A stretch of 64,000 nucleotides of DNA from Fibrobacterota bacterium (GTDB lineage: Bacteria; Fibrobacterota; Fibrobacteria; UBA5070), in assembly GCA_029557215.1 (NCBI GenBank), contig JAKPQQ010000237.1, positions 1-64,000 on the forward strand, in the 5' to 3' direction. Shown piece by piece: positions 4,581 to 48,053 of this stretch (its first letter is position 1; each line of letters starts with the position of its first letter). The notes under the pieces were generated by a model. It made no database searches and was not told the DNA's origin. It saw only the letters and a list, made by a program, of their open reading frames with translations. The position numbers and the translations under genes are program-made.

Positions 4581-4701
4581 CGGATCCCGCCGTCCGGAGC
4601 GTATTTCCGGGGCGACCGCGATGGATGTTCCGGTAACTATCATTTTTTGTCGAAGCCGTCATCGAGGACATCGTCCCGCTTCGAACGGCTGGAGAACCGC
4701 G

Positions 4702-7700
4702 ATGTCTCGATCCAGCAGCAGAATCCTCGCCGCAGCCTTTTTCGCGACCCTGGCCGTCCTGTCGGTCGGATGCCGCAAGCCGGTCGTGTTCGACCCCATG
4801 TCCGCGACGGAAGAGGCCTTGGCCTCCCGCGAACTGGAGTCGGTCACCCAGGGCGTCGTGGGCGCCCGCGGTCCCATCGTGATCAAATTCCGCCATCCCT
4901 GGGCGGCCGACGACGAGGTCGGCAAGGACGCGTCCTCCAAGTGGCTCAAGTTCGAACCCTCGATCGACGGACGCCTGTGGTGGAAGGACCACCAGACGCT
5001 CGTGTTCGAACCGGAAGACGACCTCGAGCCGGGCGAGCTCCATGTCGGAAGCCTGGATCTGCCGGGACTCGCCGACGACAAACGCCTGCCCGAATACCGG
5101 TTCGCGGTGGTTTCGGCCACCCGCACGGTGGAGCTGGAGCCCCAGGGGTTCGAGAAGTCGGAGGGCGACCTGTGGAAGCTCTCCGTGAGGGTGGAATTCA
5201 GCTCCCCCCCCAAGGGGGCCGCGGAAAAATGGTTCGACATCGACCAGGACGGAGCGGACCCCAAGGTCAAATGGACTCCTTCGGGGGCCGAGGACGGTTC
5301 CGGAGTCCTCGTCGTCGACGGAATCCGTCGCAACGGCGAAAAGCTGTCCATCAAGGTGGATGCCGGCGAGGCGGGACTGGAATCGGACGTTTCCCTGCCC
5401 GCCATGAGGATTCCCCTGGCCGACCGGCTCGGTGTCCTGTGGGCCGGCCAGCGCGGCTCGGAAGGCCGCAACGGATTCGACGTCCTCTTGTCGGATCCCG
5501 CCGCGCCCGTCGCCGACCTGGAGGGATTGGCGAAGGTCGAAGGCGTGCCGGGTGCGGTGCAGATCGAACAGAACGGGGCGCGGCTGCGCCTGTCGTGGAC
5601 GGCCAAGCCGGGCGAGGCGAATCTTGTCCTGGAAAGCGGTCTTCCCGGAGCGGACGGGCGCAAGCTGGAAAAGCGGTTCGAGCTGGCCGGCGAGTTCGCC
5701 GATTCCAAGCCCATGGCGATGTTCCGGGGATCGGGCAACATCCTGCCTTCGCCGGGCGGCAACCAGGTCCACTTCTTTTCCGTCAACCTGTCGCGCCTTC
5801 GCGTCGTCGTGCGCCGGGTGGATCCCTCCAACATCCCCGAATTCCTGTATTCCAGCAACCTGTCGGGCAACGGCGGATACCACCGGCAGCTGGGCGAGGT
5901 CGTCTGGGATCGCGTGATCCAGCTGGGCGCCAAGCGCAACACCACGCTCGAGGGAAGCCTGGATCTGGGACAGATGTTGTCCAAGAACGGGGCGGGTCTC
6001 TACACGGTGGAGCTGGAAAAGCAACGCCAGGGCATGCTCTACGCCTGCGACGAGAAGACCAAGCCTGAATCCGGCGCGATCGGGGAGCGCCGCGACGACG
6101 AACACGAAGGATCGGAAGGGGACGAGGACTACGAGGACATGCGCTGGGGCGAGCGCGACAATCCGTGCGCTCCGAGCTACTGGTACCAGGGATGGGGCGA
6201 GCGGGTGTCGCGCAATGTCCTGGTTTCCGACCTGGGGCTCATGGCCTGGCGCGATCCGAACGGGAACCTGGTGGGCGTGGCCCACGACCTGGTCACCGCG
6301 GATCCCTGGAAGGGCGTGAAGATCGAGGTGCTCAAGCCCAACGACGCCGTGGCCGCCCAAGGCCAGACCGACGGCGAGGGATTCGCCGAACTGGCGGGGA
6401 CGCTGTCGGGGACTCTCGTGCGCGCCAGTGCGGAGAAGGACGGCAAGACGCATCTGGGGTATCTGAGGTTGAACGACGGCGAAGCGCGCAACGTCTCCAA
6501 GTTCGACGTGGGAGGCGAGTCGGATCCCGACGGATTGCGTCTGTTCCTGTATTCCGAGCGAGGAGTCTACCGCCCCGGCGATTCGATCTTCCTGGGCTGC
6601 ATCCTGCGCGGCGAGGACGGCCGGATCCTGGACAAGCTTCCGCTGAAGATGACGTTGCGCGATCCGCAAGGACGTGCGGTGGCGACCACCGTTCAGAGGT
6701 CGGCCGCCGACGGCCATTTCGCATGGCGTCTGGCCACGCGACCCGAGGACGCCACCGGGCGCTGGTCGGTGCTGGCCGAAGCCGGTCCCGCCCAGACGGC
6801 GCTTTCCGTGCTGGTGGAAACGGTTCGCCCGAATCGGATGAAGATCGAGCTGGATGCCAAATCCATCCAGGTGGGCGGGCAGAACACCACGATCCGGTCG
6901 CATTGGCTTTCCGGAGGTTCGGCGGCGGGGCTCAAGGCGAAGGTGGAAATGTCCCTTTCCCCCAAGCGGGTCGCCCCGAAGGGAATGGAGGGCTATTCCT
7001 TCGAGGATCCCACGCGCGAACGTTCCGGCACCGACGAAGCCGTCGTTTGGGAAGGCGTGCTGAACGCCGAGGGCGCCGCGTCGTTCCGCTTGCCGGTTCC
7101 CGACGAGGGTGTTTCGGGGCCCATGACGGCCTGGGTCCGCTCGCGCGTCTTCGAGCCGGGTGGCCAGGCCTCGGTGGACCGTGTCGGGCTTCCGCTCTGG
7201 CCGTTCGGGCACTACGCGGGATTGCGCATCCGCACCCGCGACGGCTGGGATTGGACCTCCACGGGCGAGCCAGTCGACTTCGACGTGGTGTCGGTGGGAA
7301 CCGACCTGAAACCCGCGCAGGGGCGCAAGATGGAAATCGTGGTCTATCGCAATTCGCGCTGGTGGTGGTGGGAGAACGGCGAACGCTACCTGGGATTCCT
7401 GGATCGTTCCGAGACCCGCGAGGTCGCGCGCCTGAACACGGTGTCGGGCCAGGGCGTGGTCTACAAGCCGGATTCCAGCGGACAGTATCTGGTCCTGGCG
7501 AAGGACCTGGAGAGCGGTCACGTCTCGGGGGCGTCGTTCCACGCCTGGGGGCGCGGCGACGACGCCGGAGGCCAGGCCGGCCAGGCGCCGGTCATGCTCC
7601 GGCTGCAGGCGGTCAAGGACACGGTGGAGCCCGGACAGCAACTGGAAGTCCGGTTCCCGTCGGCCAAGAACGGCAAGGCCCTGGTGCAGGTGATGCGCGG

Positions 7701-10179
7701 CCGTCGGATCCTGTCGCAGGAGTGGATTTCCACGTCCGGTGGCGAGGCGAACTGGAAGACCAAGGTCACCGAGGAGATGCGGCCCGGGGTGTACGTCCAG
7801 GTGACCCAGTTGCAGACCTGGCCGGTGCCCACCGACAGGCCTCTGCGCATGTGGGGTCTGGTGCCGGTCGCCGTGGTGGATCCCGCCACGCGATTGAAGC
7901 CGGAAATCGAGCTTCCCGCCGAACTGCGCCCGGAAAGCAAGGCGAAGATCCGGATCCGCGAAGGCGGCAAGAGAGCGATGCAGGCGATGGTTGCGGTGGT
8001 CGACGAAGGCCTGTTGGACCTCACCCGGTTCAAGACGCCCGAACCGTGGCCGGGCTTCTACGGCAAGGAAGCCCTGCGGGTCGTGGGCTGGGACATGCAC
8101 GACCAGGTGATGGAAGCCTGGGAGGGACGGGTGGATCGCCTGTTCGCCGTGGGTGGCGACGACGATGCGCGCCGCAAGATGGACGGGGCCAAGGGCAATC
8201 CCTTCCCGCCGATGGTGGTCGTGATGGGGCCGATCGAAATCCCCAAAGGGGGCAAGGAGATCGAGATCGACGTGCCGCGCTACACCGGCTCGGTCCGGGT
8301 GATGGTCGTGGCGTCGTCGGGCGTCGCCTTCGGATCGGCCGAAAAGGCCGTGCCCGTGCGGGCTCCTGTCATGGCGCTGCTCACCGTGCCGCGCGGCATG
8401 GCTCCGGGCGACAAGGCCGACATCCCCGTCACGGTGTTTTCCGACCGCGAGGGATCCGTGTCGGTGAAGCTTTCGCTGGAAGGCGGGGCCGTGATCGAAG
8501 GTGGTGCCGAACGGACCGTGCGGTTCAAGGAGGCGGGCGACCAGGTCGTGACGTTTTCCGTCAAAGCTTCCGCGCTCGGCACGGTGGCCGTCCACGCCGT
8601 GGCGTCGGGAGCCCACGGCAAGGCGAGCGTCGACCAGCCGCTGGAAGTGAGGCTGCCCGGCGAAATGCGGGCTATCGTGCAGGAGGGTTCTCCGATTGCA
8701 GGCCAGGTCTGGAGCGTTCCGTTCGAGGCGTTCGGGGCCGAAGGCACGCGGAAGATGCGCCTGGAATTCTCTTCGATCGGCCTGTTGGGCCTGGAGAAGC
8801 GTCTTGACGACCTGATCCGCTATCCCCACGGATGCCTGGAACAGACGATGTCGGGCGCGTTGCCGCAGGTGTTCCTGCGAAAGCTCCTGCCCGATGCCGA
8901 CGAAGCGCGTTTGAAGCAGGCCGATGCGAATGTCGCGTCGGGACTGGAGAAGCTTCGGACCTTCCAGACCGCGTCCGGCGCATTCTCCCTTTGGCCGGGC
9001 GAGGGGCGTCCCTACGAATGGGGCACGCTGTGGGCGGGACGGTTCCTGTTGGCCGCCAAGGCGGCCGGTCACGCGCCGCAGGCCACCATCTGGGATCCGT
9101 ACCTTCTGCATCTGGTGGATGCATCGGCTCGCTGGAAGCCGGGAGCCTACGCGCGCCGCGGCGACACCCTGGCGCAGGTGGTGCGTCTGGACATCCTCGC
9201 CCAGGCGGGCAAGCCCGATCTGGCACGCATGAACCAGCTGCGTCCGGCGAACCTGAGGGATCTGGAACGCTGGATCCTGGCCGCGGCGTACGTTTCCGCG
9301 GGGCGCTCCGATGCCGGACAGGAACTGGCATCCAAGGCCGGAACCTCGGTTTCCGACGCGCGCAGCCTGGGCGAATGGCTGTGGTCCGACGTCCGCGACC
9401 GCGCGATGATGCTCGAGGCCATGGTGCGCGTCGGCGAACAGGAGAAATCGCTCGAGCTGTTCAAGTCGCTGCGGGCCACGGTGCGCGACGGGAACATGTG
9501 GCTTTCCACCCAGGAAGGCGGCACCGCCCTGTGGTCGTTCGCGAGCTGGCTGGACAAGCGCGGTTCGGGTCCCGCCTTCGAAGGCCAATGGCGCGTGGGC
9601 GGCGGCGCCTGGAAGAACGTCTCGGGGAGCAAGGGGACCGTGCTGGTGGAACTCCCCGCCAACGCCACCGGGCCGCTGGAAGTCCGCAATTCGGGCAAAG
9701 GGGCGCTGGACGTCCTGTTCACGCGGATCGGCATCGATCCTCCGGGGACGCCTCCTCCTCCCGCCAAGGGACTGGCGCTTTCGATCGAGTACCGCGACGC
9801 CAAGGGGACGTCCATCGATCCCGCTTCGATCAAGCTCGGCGACGATTTCCGCATCCATGCGACGATCTCCAACACGACCAGCCAGTACCTGGACAATCTC
9901 GCGATGGTCCAGGTGTTCCCGGGCGGCTGGGAGATCCGCAACGACCGCCTGGAAGGCGCGGCGGGAGTCGAATCCAACGCCATGCGCAGGGTGGAGTTCC
10001 GCGACGATCGGGTGTTCCACTACCTGGCGCTGGCCCCCGGCAAGTCGACGAGCGTGGTGGTTGGCGCCAGAGCCGCCTATGCCGGCACCTACCTGCGGCC
10101 CGGCGCCTTCGTGTCGGCGATGTACGACGGCTCGATCCAGGCCGCGGCCACGGGCGGGACCGCGGTGGTCGCGCCGTAG
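4702..10179 (+). CDS. Bacterial alpha-2-macroglobulin lipoprotein
   Basis: 1825 residues, close to the usual size of the family. The N-terminus has a lipoprotein signal peptide ending in LSVGC, so it should be a lipid-anchored periplasmic protein. A long series of macroglobulin beta-domains follows, with ERGVYRPGDSIFLGC (about residue 620) typical of the MG domains. The thioester motif YPHGCLEQ has its cysteine near residue 1378, followed by the helical complement-like domain. These proteins trap proteases that cut their bait region and couple to them through the thioester. Many bacterial relatives are paired with a PbpC peptidoglycan synthase; that partner is not next to it here. An acidic low-complexity stretch (DEHEGSEGDEDYED, near residue 470) is unusual. 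The ATG at 4702 follows GGAG. Confidence 0.92.
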   Translation: MSRSSSRILAAAFFATLAVLSVGCRKPVVFDPMSATEEALASRELESVTQGVVGARGPIVIKFRHPWAADDEVGKDASSKWLKFEPSIDGRLWWKDHQTLVFEPEDDLEPGELHVGSLDLPGLADDKRLPEYRFAVVSATRTVELEPQGFEKSEGDLWKLSVRVEFSSPPKGAAEKWFDIDQDGADPKVKWTPSGAEDGSGVLVVDGIRRNGEKLSIKVDAGEAGLESDVSLPAMRIPLADRLGVLWAGQRGSEGRNGFDVLLSDPAAPVADLEGLAKVEGVPGAVQIEQNGARLRLSWTAKPGEANLVLESGLPGADGRKLEKRFELAGEFADSKPMAMFRGSGNILPSPGGNQVHFFSVNLSRLRVVVRRVDPSNIPEFLYSSNLSGNGGYHRQLGEVVWDRVIQLGAKRNTTLEGSLDLGQMLSKNGAGLYTVELEKQRQGMLYACDEKTKPESGAIGERRDDEHEGSEGDEDYEDMRWGERDNPCAPSYWYQGWGERVSRNVLVSDLGLMAWRDPNGNLVGVAHDLVTADPWKGVKIEVLKPNDAVAAQGQTDGEGFAELAGTLSGTLVRASAEKDGKTHLGYLRLNDGEARNVSKFDVGGESDPDGLRLFLYSERGVYRPGDSIFLGCILRGEDGRILDKLPLKMTLRDPQGRAVATTVQRSAADGHFAWRLATRPEDATGRWSVLAEAGPAQTALSVLVETVRPNRMKIELDAKSIQVGGQNTTIRSHWLSGGSAAGLKAKVEMSLSPKRVAPKGMEGYSFEDPTRERSGTDEAVVWEGVLNAEGAASFRLPVPDEGVSGPMTAWVRSRVFEPGGQASVDRVGLPLWPFGHYAGLRIRTRDGWDWTSTGEPVDFDVVSVGTDLKPAQGRKMEIVVYRNSRWWWWENGERYLGFLDRSETREVARLNTVSGQGVVYKPDSSGQYLVLAKDLESGHVSGASFHAWGRGDDAGGQAGQAPVMLRLQAVKDTVEPGQQLEVRFPSAKNGKALVQVMRGRRILSQEWISTSGGEANWKTKVTEEMRPGVYVQVTQLQTWPVPTDRPLRMWGLVPVAVVDPATRLKPEIELPAELRPESKAKIRIREGGKRAMQAMVAVVDEGLLDLTRFKTPEPWPGFYGKEALRVVGWDMHDQVMEAWEGRVDRLFAVGGDDDARRKMDGAKGNPFPPMVVVMGPIEIPKGGKEIEIDVPRYTGSVRVMVVASSGVAFGSAEKAVPVRAPVMALLTVPRGMAPGDKADIPVTVFSDREGSVSVKLSLEGGAVIEGGAERTVRFKEAGDQVVTFSVKASALGTVAVHAVASGAHGKASVDQPLEVRLPGEMRAIVQEGSPIAGQVWSVPFEAFGAEGTRKMRLEFSSIGLLGLEKRLDDLIRYPHGCLEQTMSGALPQVFLRKLLPDADEARLKQADANVASGLEKLRTFQTASGAFSLWPGEGRPYEWGTLWAGRFLLAAKAAGHAPQATIWDPYLLHLVDASARWKPGAYARRGDTLAQVVRLDILAQAGKPDLARMNQLRPANLRDLERWILAAAYVSAGRSDAGQELASKAGTSVSDARSLGEWLWSDVRDRAMMLEAMVRVGEQEKSLELFKSLRATVRDGNMWLSTQEGGTALWSFASWLDKRGSGPAFEGQWRVGGGAWKNVSGSKGTVLVELPANATGPLEVRNSGKGALDVLFTRIGIDPPGTPPPPAKGLALSIEYRDAKGTSIDPASIKLGDDFRIHATISNTTSQYLDNLAMVQVFPGGWEIRNDRLEGAAGVESNAMRRVEFRDDRVFHYLALAPGKSTSVVVGARAAYAGTYLRPGAFVSAMYDGSIQAAATGGTAVVAP

Positions 10180-33628: not shown

Positions 33629-35536
33629 ATGGACAAGATCGAACATCGCCAAAACCGGAAAACGTCTTCGCTTGCCTCGATCGCGGTGGGTCTTCTGGCA
33701 TGCCTCGCGCTGTCGGCGCAGGCCCAGACCACAACGGTCAAGAACCCGTTCCTGTGGGCCGACATTCCCGATCCTTCGATCGTGCGCGTGGGCGACGCCT
33801 ACTACATGAGCTACACCACCATGCATCTGGCGCCGGGCGTCCCGATCCTGAAATCCACCGACCTCGCCAACTGGAGGACGGTCGGCTACGCGTATTCCAC
33901 GTTGGCCGACAACGACGCGATGAACCTGGCCAACGGCAAGAACGCCTACGGCAAAGGTTCGTGGGCGGCCTCGCTCCGGTACAAGGACGGCAAGTTCCAC
34001 GTCCTGGTTCCTTCCTACACCACGGGAAAGACCCACCTCTACACCACCGCCAACGTGGAAAAGGGGCCCTGGACGGAGGTTCAATTCCCGTTCTACCACG
34101 ATCCTTCGCTGCATCTGGGCGAAGACGGCAGGAACTTCGTGGTCTACGGCGCCAACGACATCCGGATCGTGGAACTGAATTCCACGCTCACCGGAGTCAA
34201 GTCGGGCGGGGTCTCCAAGATCCTGATCCCCAAGGCCCAGTCCATGGTGGGGGATTTCATCCTCAACGCCGAAGGCGCCCACATCGAGAAGATCGACGGC
34301 TGGTACTACGTCTTCCTGATCACTTGGCCGCGCTCGGGCTACGACGGGCGCACGGAACTTGTCTGGCGCTCCCGGACGATCGACGGGACCTACGAAGGCA
34401 AGGTCGTGCACAGCAGCAAGGGCGTGGCCCAGGGTAGCGTGGTGCAGGATGCCAAGGGCGCCTGGTGGGGATACCTGTTCCAGGACAACGGCTCGGTGGG
34501 ACGCTCGCCTTGGATCATGCCGGTGACGTGGTCCAACGGCTGGCCGGTGTTCAACGGAGGGACTTCGCCGACCTCCGTCGCCATGGAGACGCATTCCGCC
34601 ACCGGGACGGGAATCGTCACCTCCGACGATTTCGAGACGCCCGCCATGAAGCTCGAATGGCAATGGAACCACAACCCCGACAGCGCGAACTGGTCGCTGT
34701 CGGCGCGACCGGGCCACTACCGGATCAAGACATCCAGGGTGGACGCCCAGGTGGTGAATGCGCGCAACACGCTGTCCCAGAAGAGTTTTGGCCCCAAAAG
34801 TTCGGGTCGCATCGCCTTGGACGCCAGCGGCATGAAGGACGGCGACGTGGCGGGCCTGAGCGCCTTCCAGGCCGGCTACGGCTACGTGGGAGTCAAGAAG
34901 AGCGGGACATCCAACTCCATCGTGATGGTCAACGCCCCGAAGGGGGCGCCCACGGAGGTGGCGAGCGTCCCCGTGTCCCAGAACCGCGTCTTCCTGCGGG
35001 TCGACATGGACTTCACCAACCGCACCGACAAGGCGACGTTCTACTACAGCCTGGACAGCGCGACCTGGAAGCAGATCGGCAACACCTTGCAGATGTCCTA
35101 CACCCTGGACCATTTCATGGGGTACCGCTTCGCGTTGTTCAACTTCGCCACCAAGGCGGCGGGAGGCCACGCGGACTTCGACTGGTTCAAGATCGGCTCG
35201 ACCGCCAACGAATCCATCGACCTGTACCGCACGGCCGCGATCGGCGGCGACATCGGCCGCCAAGCGCGTCCGGGCCGGATGGCGTTGGGATCGGTGGTCT
35301 CGCGATCGGGACGGGAACTGTCGATCGGCTACGAGGTCGAACGCGATGGACGGGTGGAGATCCTCCTTGCGACGCCCGACGGCAGGATCCTGCAGACGCT
35401 CGTCGACCGGCACCACGCGCAGGGGGCCTACGACGCCTCCTGCACGGCCGCCCAGCTGCCGCGAGGCCGGTACCTGGTGCTGGCGAGGTTCGACGGCGCT
35501 CCCGCGCAGGCCGTGCCGGTGGTCCTGGTGGAGTGA
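33629..35536 (+). CDS. GH43 beta-xylosidase/arabinofuranosidase with beta-sandwich and sorting-like tail
   Basis: 635 residues, secreted (signal peptide ending SAQAQ). The five-bladed propeller (about 35-330) has the three acidic residues: base Asp48 in IPDPSIV, Asp in YHDPSLHLGEDG and the acid Glu in NAEGAHIEK. A GH43-associated beta-sandwich follows (about 335-530), ending in FNFATKAAGGHADFDWFKIG. The last 75 residues (VEILLATPDGRILQ, then LPRGRYLVLARFDG) form a FlgD- or sorting-like domain. It should release xylose or arabinose from xylan fragments. GGGAGG precedes the ATG. Last gene of the xylan cluster, tail to tail with trmD. Confidence 0.93.
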   Translation: MDKIEHRQNRKTSSLASIAVGLLACLALSAQAQTTTVKNPFLWADIPDPSIVRVGDAYYMSYTTMHLAPGVPILKSTDLANWRTVGYAYSTLADNDAMNLANGKNAYGKGSWAASLRYKDGKFHVLVPSYTTGKTHLYTTANVEKGPWTEVQFPFYHDPSLHLGEDGRNFVVYGANDIRIVELNSTLTGVKSGGVSKILIPKAQSMVGDFILNAEGAHIEKIDGWYYVFLITWPRSGYDGRTELVWRSRTIDGTYEGKVVHSSKGVAQGSVVQDAKGAWWGYLFQDNGSVGRSPWIMPVTWSNGWPVFNGGTSPTSVAMETHSATGTGIVTSDDFETPAMKLEWQWNHNPDSANWSLSARPGHYRIKTSRVDAQVVNARNTLSQKSFGPKSSGRIALDASGMKDGDVAGLSAFQAGYGYVGVKKSGTSNSIVMVNAPKGAPTEVASVPVSQNRVFLRVDMDFTNRTDKATFYYSLDSATWKQIGNTLQMSYTLDHFMGYRFALFNFATKAAGGHADFDWFKIGSTANESIDLYRTAAIGGDIGRQARPGRMALGSVVSRSGRELSIGYEVERDGRVEILLATPDGRILQTLVDRHHAQGAYDASCTAAQLPRGRYLVLARFDGAPAQAVPVVLVE

Positions 35537-37303: not shown

Positions 37304-38845
37304 ATGGAAACCGACACGCAAAAAGGGATGACCAGGGCCGCCCTGGTCCTGATGGCATCGACTCTCGCCAGCAGAGTTCTGGGCCTTGTCCGCGAGGCGC
37401 TGCTGGCCGCGCGACTGGGAACCGGAGTGGAAGCCGACGCCTACGCGACCGCTTTTCTGCTTCCCGACCTGGTGAACACGCTGCTGGCGGGCGGATTCCT
37501 GTCGCTGTCGTTCGTGCCTCTGTACATGCGCGCTTTGCGCGAGCGGGGCCAGATCCAGGCTTCGAGGTTTCTTTCTGCTGTTGCGCTGTTTTTGGCCACG
37601 GGCGGCCTGGTGGCGATCGGACTTTTGTGGATCTGGGCCGAACCTGCCCTCCTGTTGATGCAGCCCGGGCTCGCCGGCACGGTCGCCATGGAAAAATCGG
37701 TCCATCTCACACGCATCTTGCTGCCCGCACAGCTGTGTTTTCTGCTGGCAGGTGCTTGGAACGGCGTGCAATACGCGCATCGACGATTCCTGTATCCGGC
37801 CATGGCCCCCTTGGTCTACAACGTGGGCATCTTGGCGGGAGGATGGTTCCTGGCGCCCTGGATGGGCGCCGAGGGTTTTGCTTGGGGAGTGCTCGCGGGC
37901 GCCGTGGTCGGACATCTGATCCTGCAAGCCTGGGGGGTGTCCAGAACGGGTGCGGGCATGGTTTCCCCTGTCGGGGTATGGGCCGACTTGAAGGCGTTCC
38001 TGTGGCGATCCTTGCCTCTCATGCTGGGGCTCACCCTGGGTTTTTCCAGCGAATTCCTCTTGCGCCGCTTGTCGGGGTATCTGGGCACGGGCGCCGTCGC
38101 CGAGGCCAGCTACGCGTTCCGCTTGGTGATGGTGCTGGTGGCGTTGTTCGGGCAATCCACCGGTGTGGCGTCCTACCCCTACATGGTGGAGCTTGCCGGA
38201 GCGGGGGAATGGACCAAGCTGCAGGGGTTGATCAATCGAACCCTCAAGCAGCTGGTGGTGTTCCTGGTCCCGGTGTCGTTCCTGGCTTCCGTCTTCGCCC
38301 ACGACGTGGTCCGGTTGGCGTTCCAGCGCGGCCGGTTCGACGAAGCCGCGGTGGTGGCGGTGGCGCTGCCCTTGACCACCATGGTCTGGTGCGTCTTCCC
38401 GTGGTGCGTGCAGATCGTCCTGGCCAGGGCCATGTACGCGCGCGGCAAATTCTGGCTGGGCGCCGCTTTGGGGACTGTTTGCGTCCTGGTGGCGTGGCCC
38501 GCGTGGGCTTTCGCGATCGACCATCTGGGCAAGCGGGGGATCGGTCCGGGGCTCGTGTTCCTGGTCCTGGTGCAGGCGGCGGTGTTCTCGGTGGCCTGGC
38601 GCCGCGAGCCCGACGGGCGCGAGGCGTTCGCCGGCGTCGCCAAGTTGGGGTTGGAGGTGGCCCTGTTCTGCGCGGGGGCGAGCGCGGTCGGTTGGTGGAT
38701 CGGGCGGTTTCTGCCGGGGCCGGTTTCCGGCATCGCAGGAGCGTTCCTCGCAGGGGGACTTGTCGCGGGTGCCGCGATAATGAGACATTGGCCAGGAATC
38801 GATTCGATCTTGTCAAGACTCCGCACTAGATTTGGACGTACATGA
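37304..38845 (+). CDS. murJ: Lipid II flippase MurJ (MviN family)
   Basis: 513 residues and about 14 membrane helices. ASRVLGLVREALLAARLGTG at the N-terminus and FLLPDLVNTLLAGGFLSLSFVPLY are the MurJ signature; the functional Arg residues of the first helices are present. It moves the peptidoglycan precursor lipid II to the periplasmic face. It overlaps the next gene, a CHASE2 kinase, as ATGA, and starts a four-gene operon with an LpoA-like protein. That context suggests control of wall synthesis by phosphorylation. Confidence 0.95.
   Translation: METDTQKGMTRAALVLMASTLASRVLGLVREALLAARLGTGVEADAYATAFLLPDLVNTLLAGGFLSLSFVPLYMRALRERGQIQASRFLSAVALFLATGGLVAIGLLWIWAEPALLLMQPGLAGTVAMEKSVHLTRILLPAQLCFLLAGAWNGVQYAHRRFLYPAMAPLVYNVGILAGGWFLAPWMGAEGFAWGVLAGAVVGHLILQAWGVSRTGAGMVSPVGVWADLKAFLWRSLPLMLGLTLGFSSEFLLRRLSGYLGTGAVAEASYAFRLVMVLVALFGQSTGVASYPYMVELAGAGEWTKLQGLINRTLKQLVVFLVPVSFLASVFAHDVVRLAFQRGRFDEAAVVAVALPLTTMVWCVFPWCVQIVLARAMYARGKFWLGAALGTVCVLVAWPAWAFAIDHLGKRGIGPGLVFLVLVQAAVFSVAWRREPDGREAFAGVAKLGLEVALFCAGASAVGWWIGRFLPGPVSGIAGAFLAGGLVAGAAIMRHWPGIDSILSRLRTRFGRT
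38827..38834 (+). promoter_or_regulatory. TAnnTTTG -10-like box inside the 3' end of murJ
   Basis: TAGATTTG, seven bases before the kinase ATG at 38842. Because it lies in murJ it may be an internal promoter for the last three genes, or chance. Confidence 0.35.
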
Positions 38846-41031
38846 TCCGGAAGATCCTGGCCATCGCTTCGGGAATCGCCGTGCCACTCCTGGGATTGCT
38901 CCTGCTCTCCTTTGGTCTCGTGTCGACGGAAATCGGTTACTCGACGGCCCTGCACATGCTGGGCGCTTCTTCGCGTTCCGGCCGCGAGGGGGCCGCTCCC
39001 GTGGTGCTCGTCAGCATCGACAACGCCGCGCAGGACGCCGAAGGCCCTTGGCCGTGGCCGTCCGAGCGCATCGACGCCTTGGTGCGCTCCGTGGCCCAGG
39101 GTGGCGCCCGGGCGATCGTGCTCGACAAGTCGCTCTTTGCCGATCCGTTCCATTCGCCCACGCAGGCCTTGTGGAACGGGCTTCCGGGCGGAGTGCCCGT
39201 GGTGGTGCCTTCCAGGCTCCGTTCCGGTCCCGACGACTTCAGTTGCCGTCTGTGGCCCACGCCTTCCGGTGTTTCCGAGTCCGGATTCGGTCGCGTGGCC
39301 GTCCAAGATGTCCCTCAGGGCGTGCCTTGCGACGAACGCATCCTGGTGGGCGTGGATTCCCTTTCCGAAGACCAGGACATCCTTTCCTTGCCTCTGGTCT
39401 GGAACGACGGCCGCCATCTGGTGCCATCGCTGGCCTTGGCCGGCTTGCTCGCGTCCACGCCCAACGGCATTCCCGAAACCTGGTGGTCTTCCAAGGATCG
39501 ATCCATCTTGGCGGCGCACGGTTCGTTCAAGCTGGATGCCAAAGGGTGCTTGATGCTGCGGCCGCTGGGAGCGCCCGGGCAGGGCGTGCCCAACGTGAAC
39601 GCCGCCACCGCATTGGCGAGCCAGGCGGGAACCGATCTTTTCCAGGGGCGCGTGGTGGTGGTCGGAGTCACCTCCTCCAGTCTGGTTCCGTCCCTCGAAG
39701 TGCCGTTTTCGGCGCCGCTTGCCGGAAACCGTCTTCCGCGCGCAGAAGTCACGGCGACCCTCCTGCAAGGCTTGATGGACCAGGTCGTGGTGCGCGAACC
39801 GGCCTGGGGCAAGGCCATCGGCTGGTGCTTCCTGGTGCTCGTGGTGGGGCTGCTCGCCGTGGGGTTGCGTCATTCGCGTCGGCGCTGGACCCTGATCGCC
39901 TTGGCCGTGCTCACCGGTGCCGGGTTCGCCTGCTGGTGGATCGTGCTGCGGCTGGATCTCTGGTTCACGCCTCTTTCCATCGTGCTGCCTGCGATCGGTG
40001 CGGCGCTCAGCGTCCTGCTTTGGCCCAAGGAACACTTCAAGTCCCACTACAGGCCGCGTCGCGAATCGCCTTCCGTGGCGGGCCTGCCGCCGCGTCCGCC
40101 GGTGCGTTCTTCCGAGACCCAGCGCTATTCCATCACGCCGCCCGGCTCCAGCTCCACCCTGGAAATCCCCGTTTCCCAGCCGGGGGTCGACGGCCAGCTG
40201 CAGCGCGGGCCCGATGGCGAACTGCTGCGCCTTGGCCGTTACGTGGACCTCCAATCCATCGGAACCGGAGGCATGTGCAAGGTCTACGCCGCGCTCGATC
40301 CGGTCATGGACCGCAGGGTCGCCATCAAGATCCTGCGCGCCGATCGCACCAAAGGGCAGACCACCGAACAGCGATTCCTGCGCGAAGCGCGGATCGCCGG
40401 ATCGCTCCACCATCCCAACATCAACACCGTGTTCGATTTCGGGCAGGCCGAAGATCTCCTGTACCTGGTGCTGGAGTACGTGGAAGGCGAAACCCTCGCG
40501 CAGTGGGTCAAGGAGCACAACGGCGTGCGCGCCAAGGCCATCGTGCCGTGGGTCAGGCAGATCGCCGACGCCCTGGACACCGCCCACGCCTCGCAGGTCG
40601 TGCATCGCGACGTGAAACCGTCCAACTTCATGATCGTGCGCCAGAGCGGGGCCATCAAGCTCATGGATTTCGGGGTCGCCCGCACTCCCGACGTCACGCT
40701 CACTCAGGCCGGCACCACGGTGGGGACTCCCAACTACATGTCGCCCGAACAGCTCCAGGGCTCCAAGGTGGGGCCATCGTCGGACCTCTATTCCTTCGGG
40801 GTGGTGGTCTACCAAATCTTGTCGCAGCGCTTGCCGTTCCACGGCGAAGGTCTCACGGCCCTGTGCAGCGCCATCCTCAAGGGCAACTGCACCAAGTTGT
40901 CCGTCCACCGGCCGGATCTTGCCGGCACGGTGGAAAACGTGGTCCACAAGGCGTTCGCGGTGAAGGCGGAAGATCGCTTCGCGTCCGGAGCCGAATTCGC
41001 CGAGGCGTTCGAACGGGCGGTCCAGGGTTGA
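38842..41031 (+). CDS. CHASE2-domain Ser/Thr protein kinase
   Basis: 729 residues. One N-terminal membrane helix (about 6-30) and three more (about 335-400) flank an extracytoplasmic CHASE2 sensor domain (VVLVSIDNAAQDAEGPWPWPS, then ARAIVLDKSLF). The cytoplasmic Hanks kinase (about 470-725) is complete: GTGGMCKVY, VAIKIL, HRDVKPSN, MDFGVA, SPEQ. A Pro/Ser-rich juxtamembrane linker precedes it. It should sense an envelope signal and phosphorylate Ser/Thr. It is coupled to murJ upstream (ATGA) and to the LpoA-like gene downstream (TTGA). In actinobacteria MurJ is controlled by a Ser/Thr kinase, so MurJ is a reasonable candidate target; this is inference. Confidence 0.93.
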   Translation: MIRKILAIASGIAVPLLGLLLLSFGLVSTEIGYSTALHMLGASSRSGREGAAPVVLVSIDNAAQDAEGPWPWPSERIDALVRSVAQGGARAIVLDKSLFADPFHSPTQALWNGLPGGVPVVVPSRLRSGPDDFSCRLWPTPSGVSESGFGRVAVQDVPQGVPCDERILVGVDSLSEDQDILSLPLVWNDGRHLVPSLALAGLLASTPNGIPETWWSSKDRSILAAHGSFKLDAKGCLMLRPLGAPGQGVPNVNAATALASQAGTDLFQGRVVVVGVTSSSLVPSLEVPFSAPLAGNRLPRAEVTATLLQGLMDQVVVREPAWGKAIGWCFLVLVVGLLAVGLRHSRRRWTLIALAVLTGAGFACWWIVLRLDLWFTPLSIVLPAIGAALSVLLWPKEHFKSHYRPRRESPSVAGLPPRPPVRSSETQRYSITPPGSSSTLEIPVSQPGVDGQLQRGPDGELLRLGRYVDLQSIGTGGMCKVYAALDPVMDRRVAIKILRADRTKGQTTEQRFLREARIAGSLHHPNINTVFDFGQAEDLLYLVLEYVEGETLAQWVKEHNGVRAKAIVPWVRQIADALDTAHASQVVHRDVKPSNFMIVRQSGAIKLMDFGVARTPDVTLTQAGTTVGTPNYMSPEQLQGSKVGPSSDLYSFGVVVYQILSQRLPFHGEGLTALCSAILKGNCTKLSVHRPDLAGTVENVVHKAFAVKAEDRFASGAEFAEAFERAVQG

Positions 41032-42581
41032 TCCGTCCCGTCCCGCGCAATTCCTTCCAGTACTCGGGGTTCCCCTTGGTTTCCATCGCCACCTTGGCGC
41101 TTTCGCTCGCATCCGCGGTTTTTTCCAATTCCGTCGCCGAGCTCCGGCGGCTTCCGTCGGAAGACGCCCTTTCGCGACTGACGGACAGTTCCGAAGCGTC
41201 CGTGTTTCTGCGCGCCGAACAGACCCTGCGCGCGGGCCGTGCTGTCGAAGCCCTGGTGATCGCCCAGGGCTTCGAGGCTTCGTTTCCCGGGTCCGGCCTC
41301 GCGTTCCGGTCTCGCCTGATCGAAGCTTGGAGTTCCCTTGCGCTTGGCGACCATCGCCGCGGTTGCCGGATCCTGACCGAGGTCATGGCCGGAACCGATC
41401 GCGGCGCGGCGGTGCAGGCGCGCGAAACCCTGCGCGAATGGGCCAAGTCGGGCAAGCTCGCGCCGGAAGAACTGCTCGCCATCCCGTCCAGGCTTTCGGC
41501 GGGCGACACGTTGGCCTCCGAGCTGGCCGCCTCGTTCGCCAGCTTGGTGGGCAAGGATCCGCTGGTCGTGCTGCTTCCCGCCACCGGTCCGTACGCGCCC
41601 ATCGGCAAGCGCGTGGCCAAAGGGGCGATGCTCGCGGCCGAGGCGTCCGGCGTGAAGGCGGTGCTTCTGGACGAACCATCCGATCCGATCGAGGCCGCGT
41701 TGCTCGTGCGCGGCATGCTGCGGGTGGTCGTGCCGCGCGCGGTGGTCGGACCGTTGCTGTCCAACACGGCATCCTCCGTGGCCCAGGAAATGGCGCGTTG
41801 GGCCCCTAGCGTCCCTCTTTTGCTGCCCGCGGCGACCAGTCCCGGCGTGGCGAAACTTTCTCCGTCGGCCTGGCAGGTGAACGTCACGACCTCGCAGCAG
41901 GGGGTCGAGGCGGCCCGACGTGCCAGGAATTGTCTGAACGCCTCCGAAGCCTACGTGCTCTCGCCCAAAGGCGAGTTCGGCGAGACCGTGGCCGACGGGT
42001 TCGTGACGGAATTCGTCCGCTTGGGCGGCCGGATCGCCTGGCAGCGCGCCTACAACGCGGGCGCCACCGATTTCCGGACCGCCCTCGAAGCATTGAGGCG
42101 CACCGCCGCCGAGCTCGCGCGTCGTCGCGGCCAGGACACGACCAGGCTTTCTCCGGTGGTCTTTTCGCCGGGCGAAAACGCGACGGAAGCCGCCTCCATG
42201 GGCGGGCAGGCGTCCGCCATCGGCCTCAGGCCGCGTTGGATCGGGGCGTCGGGATGGCACTCCAGGCAGTTCCTGCTGGAAACCGCCGGCAGAATGGAAG
42301 GTGCGATCGTGGTCACCGACAACATTCCCGACGAATCCCGCACGGCCTGGAAGGCCTTCGCCCAGAAGTGGCGCGCCGCGGGAACCGATGTTCCCGACCG
42401 CCTCGCCGCGTTGGGTTGGGATGCCGCGCAACTGGCGCTGCAGCCCCGGATTCCGGCCGCAACCCATGCCGGAGCCCAGGCCGACATCCGGTTCGATCCG
42501 GTCGGGCGCAACAACGTCGAGGTCGGCGTGCTGCAGGTGGGAAAGAACGCCTTCGTCGCCCACGCCTGTACGGAAAAGTGA
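41028..42581 (+). CDS. LpoA-like/type 1 periplasmic-binding-fold protein
   Basis: 517 residues. A signal peptide (about 1-31) leads into a helical segment of TPR type (about 45-165) and then a Leu/Ile/Val-binding-protein fold (PLVVLLPATGPYAPIGKRVAKGAMLAAEA, about 183-500). TPR plus LIVBP is the architecture of LpoA, the periplasmic activator of penicillin-binding protein 1A, although no lipobox cysteine is evident. The TTG start overlaps the kinase stop (TTGA). It may detect or activate wall synthesis, or act as a solute-binding partner for the kinase. No ABC-transporter genes are next to it. Confidence 0.75.
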   Translation: MIRPVPRNSFQYSGFPLVSIATLALSLASAVFSNSVAELRRLPSEDALSRLTDSSEASVFLRAEQTLRAGRAVEALVIAQGFEASFPGSGLAFRSRLIEAWSSLALGDHRRGCRILTEVMAGTDRGAAVQARETLREWAKSGKLAPEELLAIPSRLSAGDTLASELAASFASLVGKDPLVVLLPATGPYAPIGKRVAKGAMLAAEASGVKAVLLDEPSDPIEAALLVRGMLRVVVPRAVVGPLLSNTASSVAQEMARWAPSVPLLLPAATSPGVAKLSPSAWQVNVTTSQQGVEAARRARNCLNASEAYVLSPKGEFGETVADGFVTEFVRLGGRIAWQRAYNAGATDFRTALEALRRTAAELARRRGQDTTRLSPVVFSPGENATEAASMGGQASAIGLRPRWIGASGWHSRQFLLETAGRMEGAIVVTDNIPDESRTAWKAFAQKWRAAGTDVPDRLAALGWDAAQLALQPRIPAATHAGAQADIRFDPVGRNNVEVGVLQVGKNAFVAHACTEK

Positions 42582-43729
42582 AGCTCCAGCTCCGCTGCGA
42601 ATCGCTCGCCACCGGCGGCAAGGCGGTGGCGCGCCACGAGGGGCGCGTGGTGTTCGTGGAAGGCGCCGCGCCGAACGAGACCGTGCTCGCCGAAGTCGTG
42701 GTCGACAAGGGGCGGTTCCTGGAAGCGCGCGTCCTGGAAATCATCGAGCCCTCCGCCGATCGTGTCCAGCCGCGCTGCCGGCATTTCGGGGACTGCGGCG
42801 GGTGCTCGTGGCAATATCTGTCGTACCCGGCCCAGCTTTCCGCCAAGAAGTCCATGCTGGAAGACGCGTTCCGTCGCCTGGGCAAACTCGGATCGTGGCC
42901 CGCGATCGAACTCGTCTCCGGGGAACCGTGGGGGTTCCGCAACCGCGCCCAGTTCCAGCCGCCGGAACGCGACGGCGCCTGGGGATTCTTCGCGGCGGGG
43001 TCGCGGCGCGCGGTGGCGCTCCAGGAGTGCCCCGTCCTCGCCGACGAACTCCAGGGTGCATGGGACGAGCTGGCCTCCCGTCGAAGCGATCCGTGGGCCG
43101 ACCGTCGCCAGCGCACGGTGTTCGCTTGGGGTGCGCAGGGACGCCGCTGGTTCCGCGGCCCCGGCGATCCGCCGGGCGAACCCGCCGAGGCCGTGGTGGG
43201 AAGCCGAGCGCTGAAGTTCGCCGTCGACGGATTCTTCCAGAGCAATCTCGCGTTGGTGCCGCGCATGGTGGAACTCGCCACCGGAGGCGCGCAGGGGACC
43301 GAGGCTTGGGACCTCTACGCCGGAGTGGGGTTGTTCGCGAGCCATCTGGAAGACCGATTCGGCACGGTCCATGCCGTGGAAAGCGACCCCCTCGCGGCCA
43401 AATGGGCGCCGGCCAATCTCGCCAAGGCGATCTACCACGACCTGCCGGTGGAACAGTGGCTGCTTTCCAGGCTGGAATCGGGGCGCACCGGGCCCGACCT
43501 CGCGGTGGTCGATCCGCCGCGACAAGGATTGACCGGCATCGCCCTGGAACGGCTGGTGGCCTGCAAGCCCAAGGCGTTGCGCTACGTGAGCTGCGGGCAC
43601 GACACCCTGGCCCGCGATCTCAAGGCCTTGGTCGGAGCGGGTTACGTCCTGGACAAGGTCTTTCTGCTGGATCTGTACCCCCACACGCCGCATCTGGAAG
43701 TGGTGGTGCATCTGTCGGCACCGGCATAG
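42578..43729 (+). CDS. rlmD: RlmD/TrmA-family RNA (uracil-5-)-methyltransferase
   Basis: 383 residues. A TRAM-like N-terminus, an iron-sulfur cysteine cluster (CRHFGDCGGC), the SAM site WDLYAGVGLF, the DPPRQG motif and YVSCGHDTLARDL with the catalytic cysteine are all present. It methylates C5 of a uridine in 23S rRNA or tRNA; the exact target within this family cannot be told from sequence. The GTG start overlaps the upstream stop as GTGA. It is the odd member of a wall-related operon. Confidence 0.9.
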   Translation: MKLQLRCESLATGGKAVARHEGRVVFVEGAAPNETVLAEVVVDKGRFLEARVLEIIEPSADRVQPRCRHFGDCGGCSWQYLSYPAQLSAKKSMLEDAFRRLGKLGSWPAIELVSGEPWGFRNRAQFQPPERDGAWGFFAAGSRRAVALQECPVLADELQGAWDELASRRSDPWADRRQRTVFAWGAQGRRWFRGPGDPPGEPAEAVVGSRALKFAVDGFFQSNLALVPRMVELATGGAQGTEAWDLYAGVGLFASHLEDRFGTVHAVESDPLAAKWAPANLAKAIYHDLPVEQWLLSRLESGRTGPDLAVVDPPRQGLTGIALERLVACKPKALRYVSCGHDTLARDLKALVGAGYVLDKVFLLDLYPHTPHLEVVVHLSAPA

Positions 43730-45942: not shown

Positions 45943-45974
45943 ATGGCTTGCGCCATCTTATCGTTTTTCCGCAC

Positions 45975-46454
45975 ATGAAAAAAGACCCGATTCGATTTCT
46001 CTTCGTCTGCACCGGGAACATCTGCCGGTCGCCCACCGCCCACGCCATCTTCCGGCGCCGGATCCAGGAGCGCGGACTGCAGTCCCGACTGGAATGCGAT
46101 TCGGCCGGGACGCACGCCTACCACGTGGGGGAGGGCGCCGACGCCCGGTCCGCCCTACACGGAAAACGCCGCGGCTACGATTTTTCCTTCCATCGCGCGC
46201 GCAAGGTGAACGCGGCCGATTTCCACGACTTCGACTGGATCCTGGCCATGGATCGCAGCCACCTGGAAATCCTGCAGGACATGGCGGTACCCGACCAGCG
46301 CGCCAAGTTGGCCATGTTCCTGTCCGTCACCCCCGATTGCGGCACGCAGGACGTTCCCGATCCCTACTACGGTGGCGACCAGGGGTTCGAACACGTGCTC
46401 GATCTGTGCGAACACGCCTGCGACGCCTGGATCCATAAGGCTTTGGGCGAGTAA
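45975..46454 (+). CDS. Low-molecular-weight protein tyrosine phosphatase
   Basis: 159 residues. The P-loop CTGNICRSP supplies the nucleophilic Cys and the Arg of CX5R, and VPDPYYGGD carries the general acid Asp, so the enzyme should be active. Bacterial members dephosphorylate tyrosine kinases of capsule or envelope systems; no such kinase gene is nearby. Start at ATG 45975; a longer frame from 45948 is less likely. No Shine-Dalgarno sequence; TATCGT 11 bases upstream of the ATG may be the -10. Confidence 0.92.
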   Translation: MKKDPIRFLFVCTGNICRSPTAHAIFRRRIQERGLQSRLECDSAGTHAYHVGEGADARSALHGKRRGYDFSFHRARKVNAADFHDFDWILAMDRSHLEILQDMAVPDQRAKLAMFLSVTPDCGTQDVPDPYYGGDQGFEHVLDLCEHACDAWIHKALGE

Positions 46455-47038: not shown

Positions 47039-47564
47039 CTTTTTTCGCCCGCCTCGCGGCGCATCCTCGCGACCTTCACCACTCGGCGTCCCTGCGCGGA
47101 CGCCTTCGGATTCAGGTCTCTTCGGCTGCATCCACGATTCGGGCAAAAAAAACCGCCTGAAAAATTGGATCGTGGTTTCGACCGCATTCGCGATCTACGG
47201 CTGAAATTCTGCCTCGCGGCACATCGTGGTACTAGTAATCACCGAAGTGTTGAGGTTCTCTCGCGTGGTATCTGACAAGGGCGCCACGGAGATCGAGTCT
47301 TCGAATGGGGGGCGACTTCCCTGGGGTTGTTCATGGAAGAGTTTCCGTCCAAGGTGGATGGTTGCGGTACAACTCGCCTGGAAAAGGCTGGGCCGGGCTC
47401 CGATGTGAGAGTGGCTGGGCCGAGGATCCCACCTTCTGAATTTAGTTTTTTTAGAAATTAAGTTTTGACGTTGGTGTGACGGATGTTTTCTTGGGTTGGC
47501 ACGACCTGTGATTGTATGCATGGTCATGATCGGGGATGACCCCCCGGCAAACAAGGAGAAAACC
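47039..47564 (+). other. Intergenic region between tRNA-Cys and pilA
   Basis: About 520 bases without a convincing gene. The left part is GC-rich and the last 110 bases are AT-richer, with T- and A-runs near 47450. A sigma-54-like element precedes the first pilin. The GGCTGGGCCG sequence occurs twice near 47388-47425. No RNA gene was recognised. Confidence 0.4.
47496..47512 (+). promoter_or_regulatory. Candidate sigma-54 promoter for pilA
   Basis: TTGGCACG matches the -24 element exactly. The -12 element reads GTGA where TTGC is expected, so the match is partial. It lies about 52 bases before the pilin start, and type IV pilin genes are often sigma-54 dependent. Confidence 0.3.
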
Positions 47565-48053
47565 ATGAAGTCGCTCAAGAAGGGGTTCACCCTCGTCGAA
47601 CTGATGGTCGTGATCGTGATCATCGGCATCCTCGCCGCCCTGGCCATCCCCCGCTTCCTGGCTGCTACCTCGAAGGCAAAGCTCTCCGAGTTCAAGCCGG
47701 TCCTCAAGCAGATCTACACTCTGCAGGAAACCCGTTTCCAGGAAGTTGGCTCTTACAGCGCCACTGCAACCGACATCGGTTATACGGAACCGGGGGCTAA
47801 GTCCAACTTTGTCTACGGACTATTGGATGGTACAGGTGGCGACTCGACCCTCGCTCGTGCAACGACCAAGGCTGGTTTCTCGCTCAAGCTTTCTGATGGC
47901 ACCTCGACCATTCCTGGGAATACGCTCACAGCCTGTATCAATCAGCGTGGCGTGATCGCAGCGAATTCGGCGTTGTCCTATGCGGCCCAATTGGCGAGGG
48001 ATGCAGCCATGCTTAATGATGCAAATGCCGCAATCACTTCTGCTTGCCAATAA
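47565..48053 (+). CDS. pilA: Type IV major pilin PilA (copy 1)
   Basis: 162 residues. A short basic leader (MKSLKKG) is followed by the prepilin peptidase site G/FTLVELMVVIVIIGILAALAIPRF, with Glu5 of the mature protein. The globular part has two Cys residues near the end for the D-loop disulfide (TACINQ and ITSACQ). It should be cleaved and methylated by PilD and polymerised into type IV pili for adhesion or twitching. AAGGAG precedes the ATG. A strong terminator follows at 48076. Confidence 0.95.
   Translation: MKSLKKGFTLVELMVVIVIIGILAALAIPRFLAATSKAKLSEFKPVLKQIYTLQETRFQEVGSYSATATDIGYTEPGAKSNFVYGLLDGTGGDSTLARATTKAGFSLKLSDGTSTIPGNTLTACINQRGVIAANSALSYAAQLARDAAMLNDANAAITSACQ

Follow-up and report, generated by a model that had tools for sequence, protein, structure and literature searches.

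What do a lipid II flippase, a receptor kinase and a periplasmic binding protein do together in one tightly packed bacterial operon? The window (the whole stretch of 64,000 nucleotides that was analysed, from genome G000 of Fibrobacterota family f1) raises this question with four consecutive genes on the + strand. A murJ-type lipid II flippase gene (37304..38845, 513 aa) is followed by the gene of a membrane Ser/Thr kinase with a CHASE2 domain (38842..41031, 729 aa), by that of a TPR-like plus type-1 periplasmic-binding protein, labelled BP here (41028..42581, 517 aa, TTG start at 41028), and by rlmD, which encodes a 23S rRNA U1939 methyltransferase (42578..43729, GTG start). An earlier note on this DNA had stated that these genes overlap by 4 bp each, and the junctions were confirmed as ATGA (38842..38845) for murJ/kinase, TTGA (41028..41031) for kinase/BP and GTGA (42578..42581) for BP/rlmD, all on the + strand. 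Such 4-base overlaps are frequent in bacterial operons and, taken alone, are weak proof of anything. The same note knew of no module described with such a composition, which agrees with the open-access literature, where we found no paper on the combination and none that joins MurJ with CHASE2.

A counterpart of the set is found in genome G165 of the same genus, where murJ, kinase and BP share a contig that breaks off within BP (locus L006), and the remaining part of BP, followed by rlmD, lies on another (locus L150). The ATGA and TTGA overlaps are present there as well; the GTGA overlap is absent, and BP and rlmD do not overlap. When G000 and G165 were compared over murJ, rlmD, the kinase (whole and for each of its two domains) and only the C-terminal 352 codons of BP, dN/dS was 0.08-0.16 at a dS of 1.2-2.2, indicating purifying selection. 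Hence, murJ, the kinase, BP and rlmD have been kept by selection.

RlmD scored 209.8 bits with NCBIfam TIGR00479 (cut-off 183.55); it shares the operon and is probably a passenger that forms no part of a signalling pair. The unrelated function of rlmD, together with the commonness of dense overlapping operons, would fit a loose housekeeping operon in which the genes share a promoter and no common pathway, the kinase and BP being independent of each other. On the opposite strand, trmD, rimM and rpsP lie upstream of the four genes, and genes for an HDOD protein and a cyclic-nucleotide-binding protein lie downstream. About 2.2 kb 3' of rlmD there is a gene for a low-molecular-weight protein tyrosine phosphatase (45948-46454, +, PF01451 146.6 bits), and nothing tying it to the kinase unit was found. 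The window also encodes a bacterial alpha-2-macroglobulin with bait region and TED domains (4621-10179, +, 1852 aa), a family 43 glycoside hydrolase that also has a beta-xylosidase C-terminal domain (33629-35536, +), which fits a plant-fibre degrader, and a pilin-like protein with an N-terminal methylation motif (47496-48053, +).

MurJ of the window matched Pfam PF03023 at 153.9 bits (cut-off 27.4), and its best solved-structure matches are MurJ structures; for the NCBIfam equivalog TIGR01695 it reached 202.2, below the cut-off of 235.55. As a side observation, solved MurJ chains carry R-R after LPNL-L, and the clear Fibrobacterota MurJs sampled carry N-T or N-H (aa 57-58 in the window protein).

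The kinase scored 80.4 bits for CHASE2 (PF05226, cut-off 26.3) and 173.9 for Pkinase (PF00069, cut-off 31.7). Its chain runs from a transmembrane segment through CHASE2 (aa 45-337), three more hydrophobic stretches and a linker to a PknB-like kinase domain starting at aa 467; one N-terminal hydrophobic stretch and three past the CHASE2 domain, as seen in the hydropathy profile, are the usual CHASE2 layout. The catalytic motifs K496, E515, HRD (588-590) and DFG (609-611) are invariant in 7/7 aligned kinases, and an AlphaFold model built from this 7-row alignment had a pLDDT of 43.7, too low to be of use. A CHASE2 sensor in place of PASTA repeats, as the earlier note had it, was borne out: the Pfam scan gave no PASTA in this protein, which scored 280.6 with NF033483 against a cut-off of 450. 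Elsewhere, PASTA proteins occurred in 16/16 genomes checked, mostly as frames of fewer than 300 aa or of at least 600 aa; many of the frames below 300 aa hold two or three PASTA repeats and are too short for kinases.

BP matched Peripla_BP_6 (PF13458) at 71.9 bits. The TPR plus type 1 binding fold previously ascribed to it is also what its AlphaFold model predicts, with TPR-like helices, a type-1 binding fold and a mean pLDDT of 88.9. Its single hydrophobic stretch (aa 13-33, with the sequence A-S-A near residue 30) is consistent with a signal peptide. In fold, BP comes nearest to LIVBP-type amino-acid-binding proteins, and within the BP family (24 members) GP..S is invariant and an A-T motif is conserved. 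These features could be taken to mean that BP is an ordinary binding protein of a branched-chain amino-acid type ABC transporter. However, neither a permease nor an ATPase gene is found in the operon, BP carries an N-terminal TPR-like region, and where the amino-acid binding protein 4gnr has an acidic residue, which we take to bind the amino group, 24/24 members have S, N, T or R. We regard the transport reading as very unlikely.

How far BP resembles LpoA bears on the larger proposal of the earlier note, a lipid II and wall module. In such a module the kinase would phosphorylate MurJ or wall enzymes, and BP would activate a class A PBP in the manner of LpoA. The two-domain layout supports the name LpoA-like. 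In a Foldseek search with BP, LpoA (5kcn) aligned over 574 columns at E 2.5e-15 with an rmsd of 22 A, which means that the domains are arranged differently, and among the best 50 rows only LpoA structures (5kcn, 5vbg, 5vat) were aligned over both domains. A profile search with the 24 family members likewise found LpoA, at E 1.2e-5, over the junction of TPR region and binding fold and thus in both domains. LpoA was absent among the best 50 VIA-align rows, all of which were binding-fold rows, and this excludes nothing. The LppC/LpoA family PF04348 was over cut-off in 6/9 BP family members scanned, whereas the window protein (P0003, 17.3 against 28.8) fell below it, as did L153 and L155.

Other parts of the LpoA comparison did not hold. 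Of the BPs with the N-terminus in view (L150 is cut there), 0/23 have a lipobox where the signal peptide ends; two matches to the pattern are found elsewhere in the proteins. PCB_OB (PF17092), presumably the PBP1A docking domain (ODD) for LpoA, was over cut-off in 0/16 genomes, with two weak matches. BP is therefore best called LpoA-like in layout, and stimulation of a class A PBP is only putative. It should be further pointed out that BP of the window genus is strongly diverged, with a stem branch of 2.72 and part of the TPR region missing. A second BP copy as the true orthologue was looked for with the f4 relative, and none was found in G000 or G165.

The distribution of the genes was followed in a phylum sample of 167 Fibrobacterota genomes, with gene positions in relatives' loci taken from tblastn. 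BP, which occurs in 159/167 genomes, belongs to the phylum's core proteins; a relative of the window murJ was found in 147/167, a CHASE2 match in 133/167 and an RlmD relative in 160/167. The earlier note had looked to conservation of the gene order in other Fibrobacterota, and here its proposal was upheld only in part: the full four-gene order is confined to its own genus, in 2/167 genomes (G000 and G165, spanning two contig ends in the latter).

Part of the order reaches further. murJ directly followed by BP, with no kinase between, occurs in G041 and G042 (f2), G044 and G147 (f3) and G154 (f4). Among the matches listed, the two genes are neighbours on one strand in 5/131 genomes with both placed, a count that includes G000, where the kinase separates them, and leaves out second fragments, the murJ match of G162 and the split BP of G165; G042 and G165 add two cases seen in loci, making 7 genomes among these matches. 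In 36 further genomes murJ and BP share a contig at a distance of at least 8 kb, again among the matches listed, and in families f7 to f12 no placed genome showed murJ-BP neighbours among them. Chance was set aside as the cause of this neighbourhood, because four families (f1, f2, f3, f4) share the arrangement, which is a minority one. For the lipid II and wall module, the adjacency in f1 (with the kinase between) to f4 is a point in favour, although it involves only these 7 genomes and the order that includes the kinase is confined to one genus.

When the phylum was searched with the full kinase sequence (E 1e-50), 20/167 genomes had matches. After G165, the best were six genomes of genus g15 in family f5, and in 6/6 of them BP, on the same strand, is the next gene after the matched kinase. 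rlmD is in the same neighbourhood and not adjacent. In these six genomes no murJ stands beside the kinase-BP pair and no clear MurJ was found in the genome. PF03023 matches in f5 are weak, the best having an E of 1.0e-19 in G160, with the exception of G162, which has a clear match; the search gave none in G164. Taken by genome, PF03023 matches are weak or absent in G155-G161, G163 and G164. Because the g15 pair has no clear MurJ, the kinase accompanies BP with or without MurJ. Thus, the conserved neighbour of the kinase is BP, not MurJ.

The kinases of the two families also belong together. A maximum-likelihood tree was built from 124 kinase-domain rows, which are selected matches. It unites the two kinases of f1 and the six of f5 in one clade with support of 100/99, apart from another CHASE2 kinase of G000 and from the sampled kinases of the rest of the phylum; the program gives a warning for the f1+f5 branch, which meets a second long branch. 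f1 and f5 kinases align over their full length at 30-31% identity, and the sensor domain of the f5 kinases is weakly CHASE2, being over cut-off in 1/5 scanned. For BP, the tree gives the window-genus protein a long branch of 2.72 and no settled place relative to the f5 BPs.

These observations weigh on both readings introduced above. The kinase-BP pair of f5, which has neither a linked nor a clear MurJ, counts against the lipid II and wall module, as do the missing lipobox and PCB_OB; the LpoA-like layout and the precedent of PknB and MurJ in mycobacteria (PMC6180346) count for it. The murJ-BP adjacency and the layout of BP thus survive from the earlier note, while a link of the kinase to MurJ was not seen beyond the genus in the genomes sampled, and we consider the module unlikely. 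The genes next to BP do differ across the phylum (DUF151-type nuclease, sigma-54 activator, murJ), as a loose operon would allow; the gene 5' of BP belongs to one cluster in four loci from f7, f9, f11 and f13, whose member L163 is a bifunctional-nuclease (DUF151-type) protein. Yet two families share the kinase-BP order, with kinases of a single clade, and four share murJ-BP, so that a loose operon appears quite improbable.

A sigma-54 activator gene (L161 4745-5719; L162 13959-15113; L203-L206) lies directly upstream of the kinase in 5/5 g15 genomes whose contig reaches there, the contig of G157 stopping inside the kinase, or upstream of BP, as in the one g16 genome examined, G164, which has no kinase at this place. 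Two of the activators were scanned, L162 being the g15 one, and no N-terminal sensor domain was found. The activator is a possible output of the pair in f5.

The recurrence of kinase and BP in a distant family suggests a two-protein envelope sensor. Our preferred reading, held tentatively and at somewhat less than even chances, is that the CHASE2 receptor kinase is served by BP as a dedicated periplasmic co-receptor, by analogy with LuxP-LuxQ or TorT-TorS. BP in the periplasm would bind a ligand or a wall component and would make physical contact with the kinase by docking on the CHASE2 domain. Docking would alter the activity of the kinase inside the cell; LuxP and TorT have such an effect on histidine kinases. 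As to substrates, the likeliest outputs in the window genus would be envelope or wall proteins and a wall-related signal would be favoured, since the pair sits within a murJ operon; in f5 the likeliest output would be transcription, since the pair stands behind a sigma-54 activator that has no sensor domain of its own. Counting against the co-receptor reading are the activator-BP arrangement without kinase in G164, the weak CHASE2 domain in f5, the long branch and incomplete TPR region of BP in the window genus, and the selected rows and branch warning of the kinase tree. Most of the phylum moreover lacks the pair and has BP unaccompanied by the kinase, which means that BP must serve some other function.

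If a Hanks-type Ser/Thr receptor kinase relied on an LpoA-related protein with TPR region and type-1 binding fold, encoded by a separate gene, as its periplasmic co-receptor, this would be a new receptor architecture, a claim we find doubtful at present. To our knowledge the signal sensed by CHASE2 domains is not known, and wall regulation in Fibrobacterota has been little studied. The four-gene set is genus-specific; the kinase-BP pair, which recurs, offers a lead on the CHASE2 signal that can be tested, and the linked periplasmic binding protein is a concrete candidate partner for this CHASE2 kinase clade. If the co-receptor reading is true, one wall-linked protein reports the envelope state to a kinase that serves lipid II flipping in one lineage and sigma-54 transcription in another. 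The principle of binding protein and sensor kinase would then extend from histidine to Ser/Thr kinases and be tied to the Fibrobacterota wall.

Several known systems share parts of this arrangement. Control of MurJ by PknB in mycobacteria is described in PMC6180346, where Gee et al. 2012 is cited; with PknB, CwlM/FhaA and MurJ, a PknB-like kinase shares a regulatory circuit with MurJ. Mycobacterial PknB, however, carries PASTA where the window kinase has CHASE2, mycobacterial MurJ contains an intracellular pseudokinase domain that would not fit into the 513 aa of the window MurJ, and here kinase and MurJ are linked by gene order only. LpoA (LppC, PF04348), the PBP1A activator of gammaproteobacteria, whose structure and role are reviewed in PMC4632607, shares with BP a TPR-like N-domain and a type-1 binding-fold C-domain; unlike LpoA, BP has no lipobox and no PCB_OB partner over cut-off, and amino-acid binding proteins match it better.

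CHASE2-Ser/Thr kinases as such are already known, as a cyanobacterial survey (PMC2176072) describes. Like cbSTKII and others there, the window kinase has an N-terminal CHASE2 domain, membrane helices and a Hanks-type kinase domain; it differs from other CHASE2-Ser/Thr kinases by the binding-protein gene directly downstream and by its separate clade. Our genome scan placed such kinases in loci of several phyla, among the matches listed, and of at least 80 loci listed, many with short flanks and 19 of 80 with the CHASE2 part visible, only L006 (of G165) has murJ or BP relatives. The same survey (PMC2176072) includes a cyanobacterial Ser/Thr kinase with an ANF receptor domain, which is by analogy a fused counterpart of the kinase-BP pair. 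Binding proteins that act on histidine sensor kinases are known from LuxP-LuxQ, TorT-TorS and XylFII-LytS (PMC6321045). There the binding protein acts on the kinase, whereas here it is only encoded alongside, and the pair described here is set apart by a Ser/Thr in place of a histidine kinase, a CHASE2 sensor and a TPR region on the binding protein.
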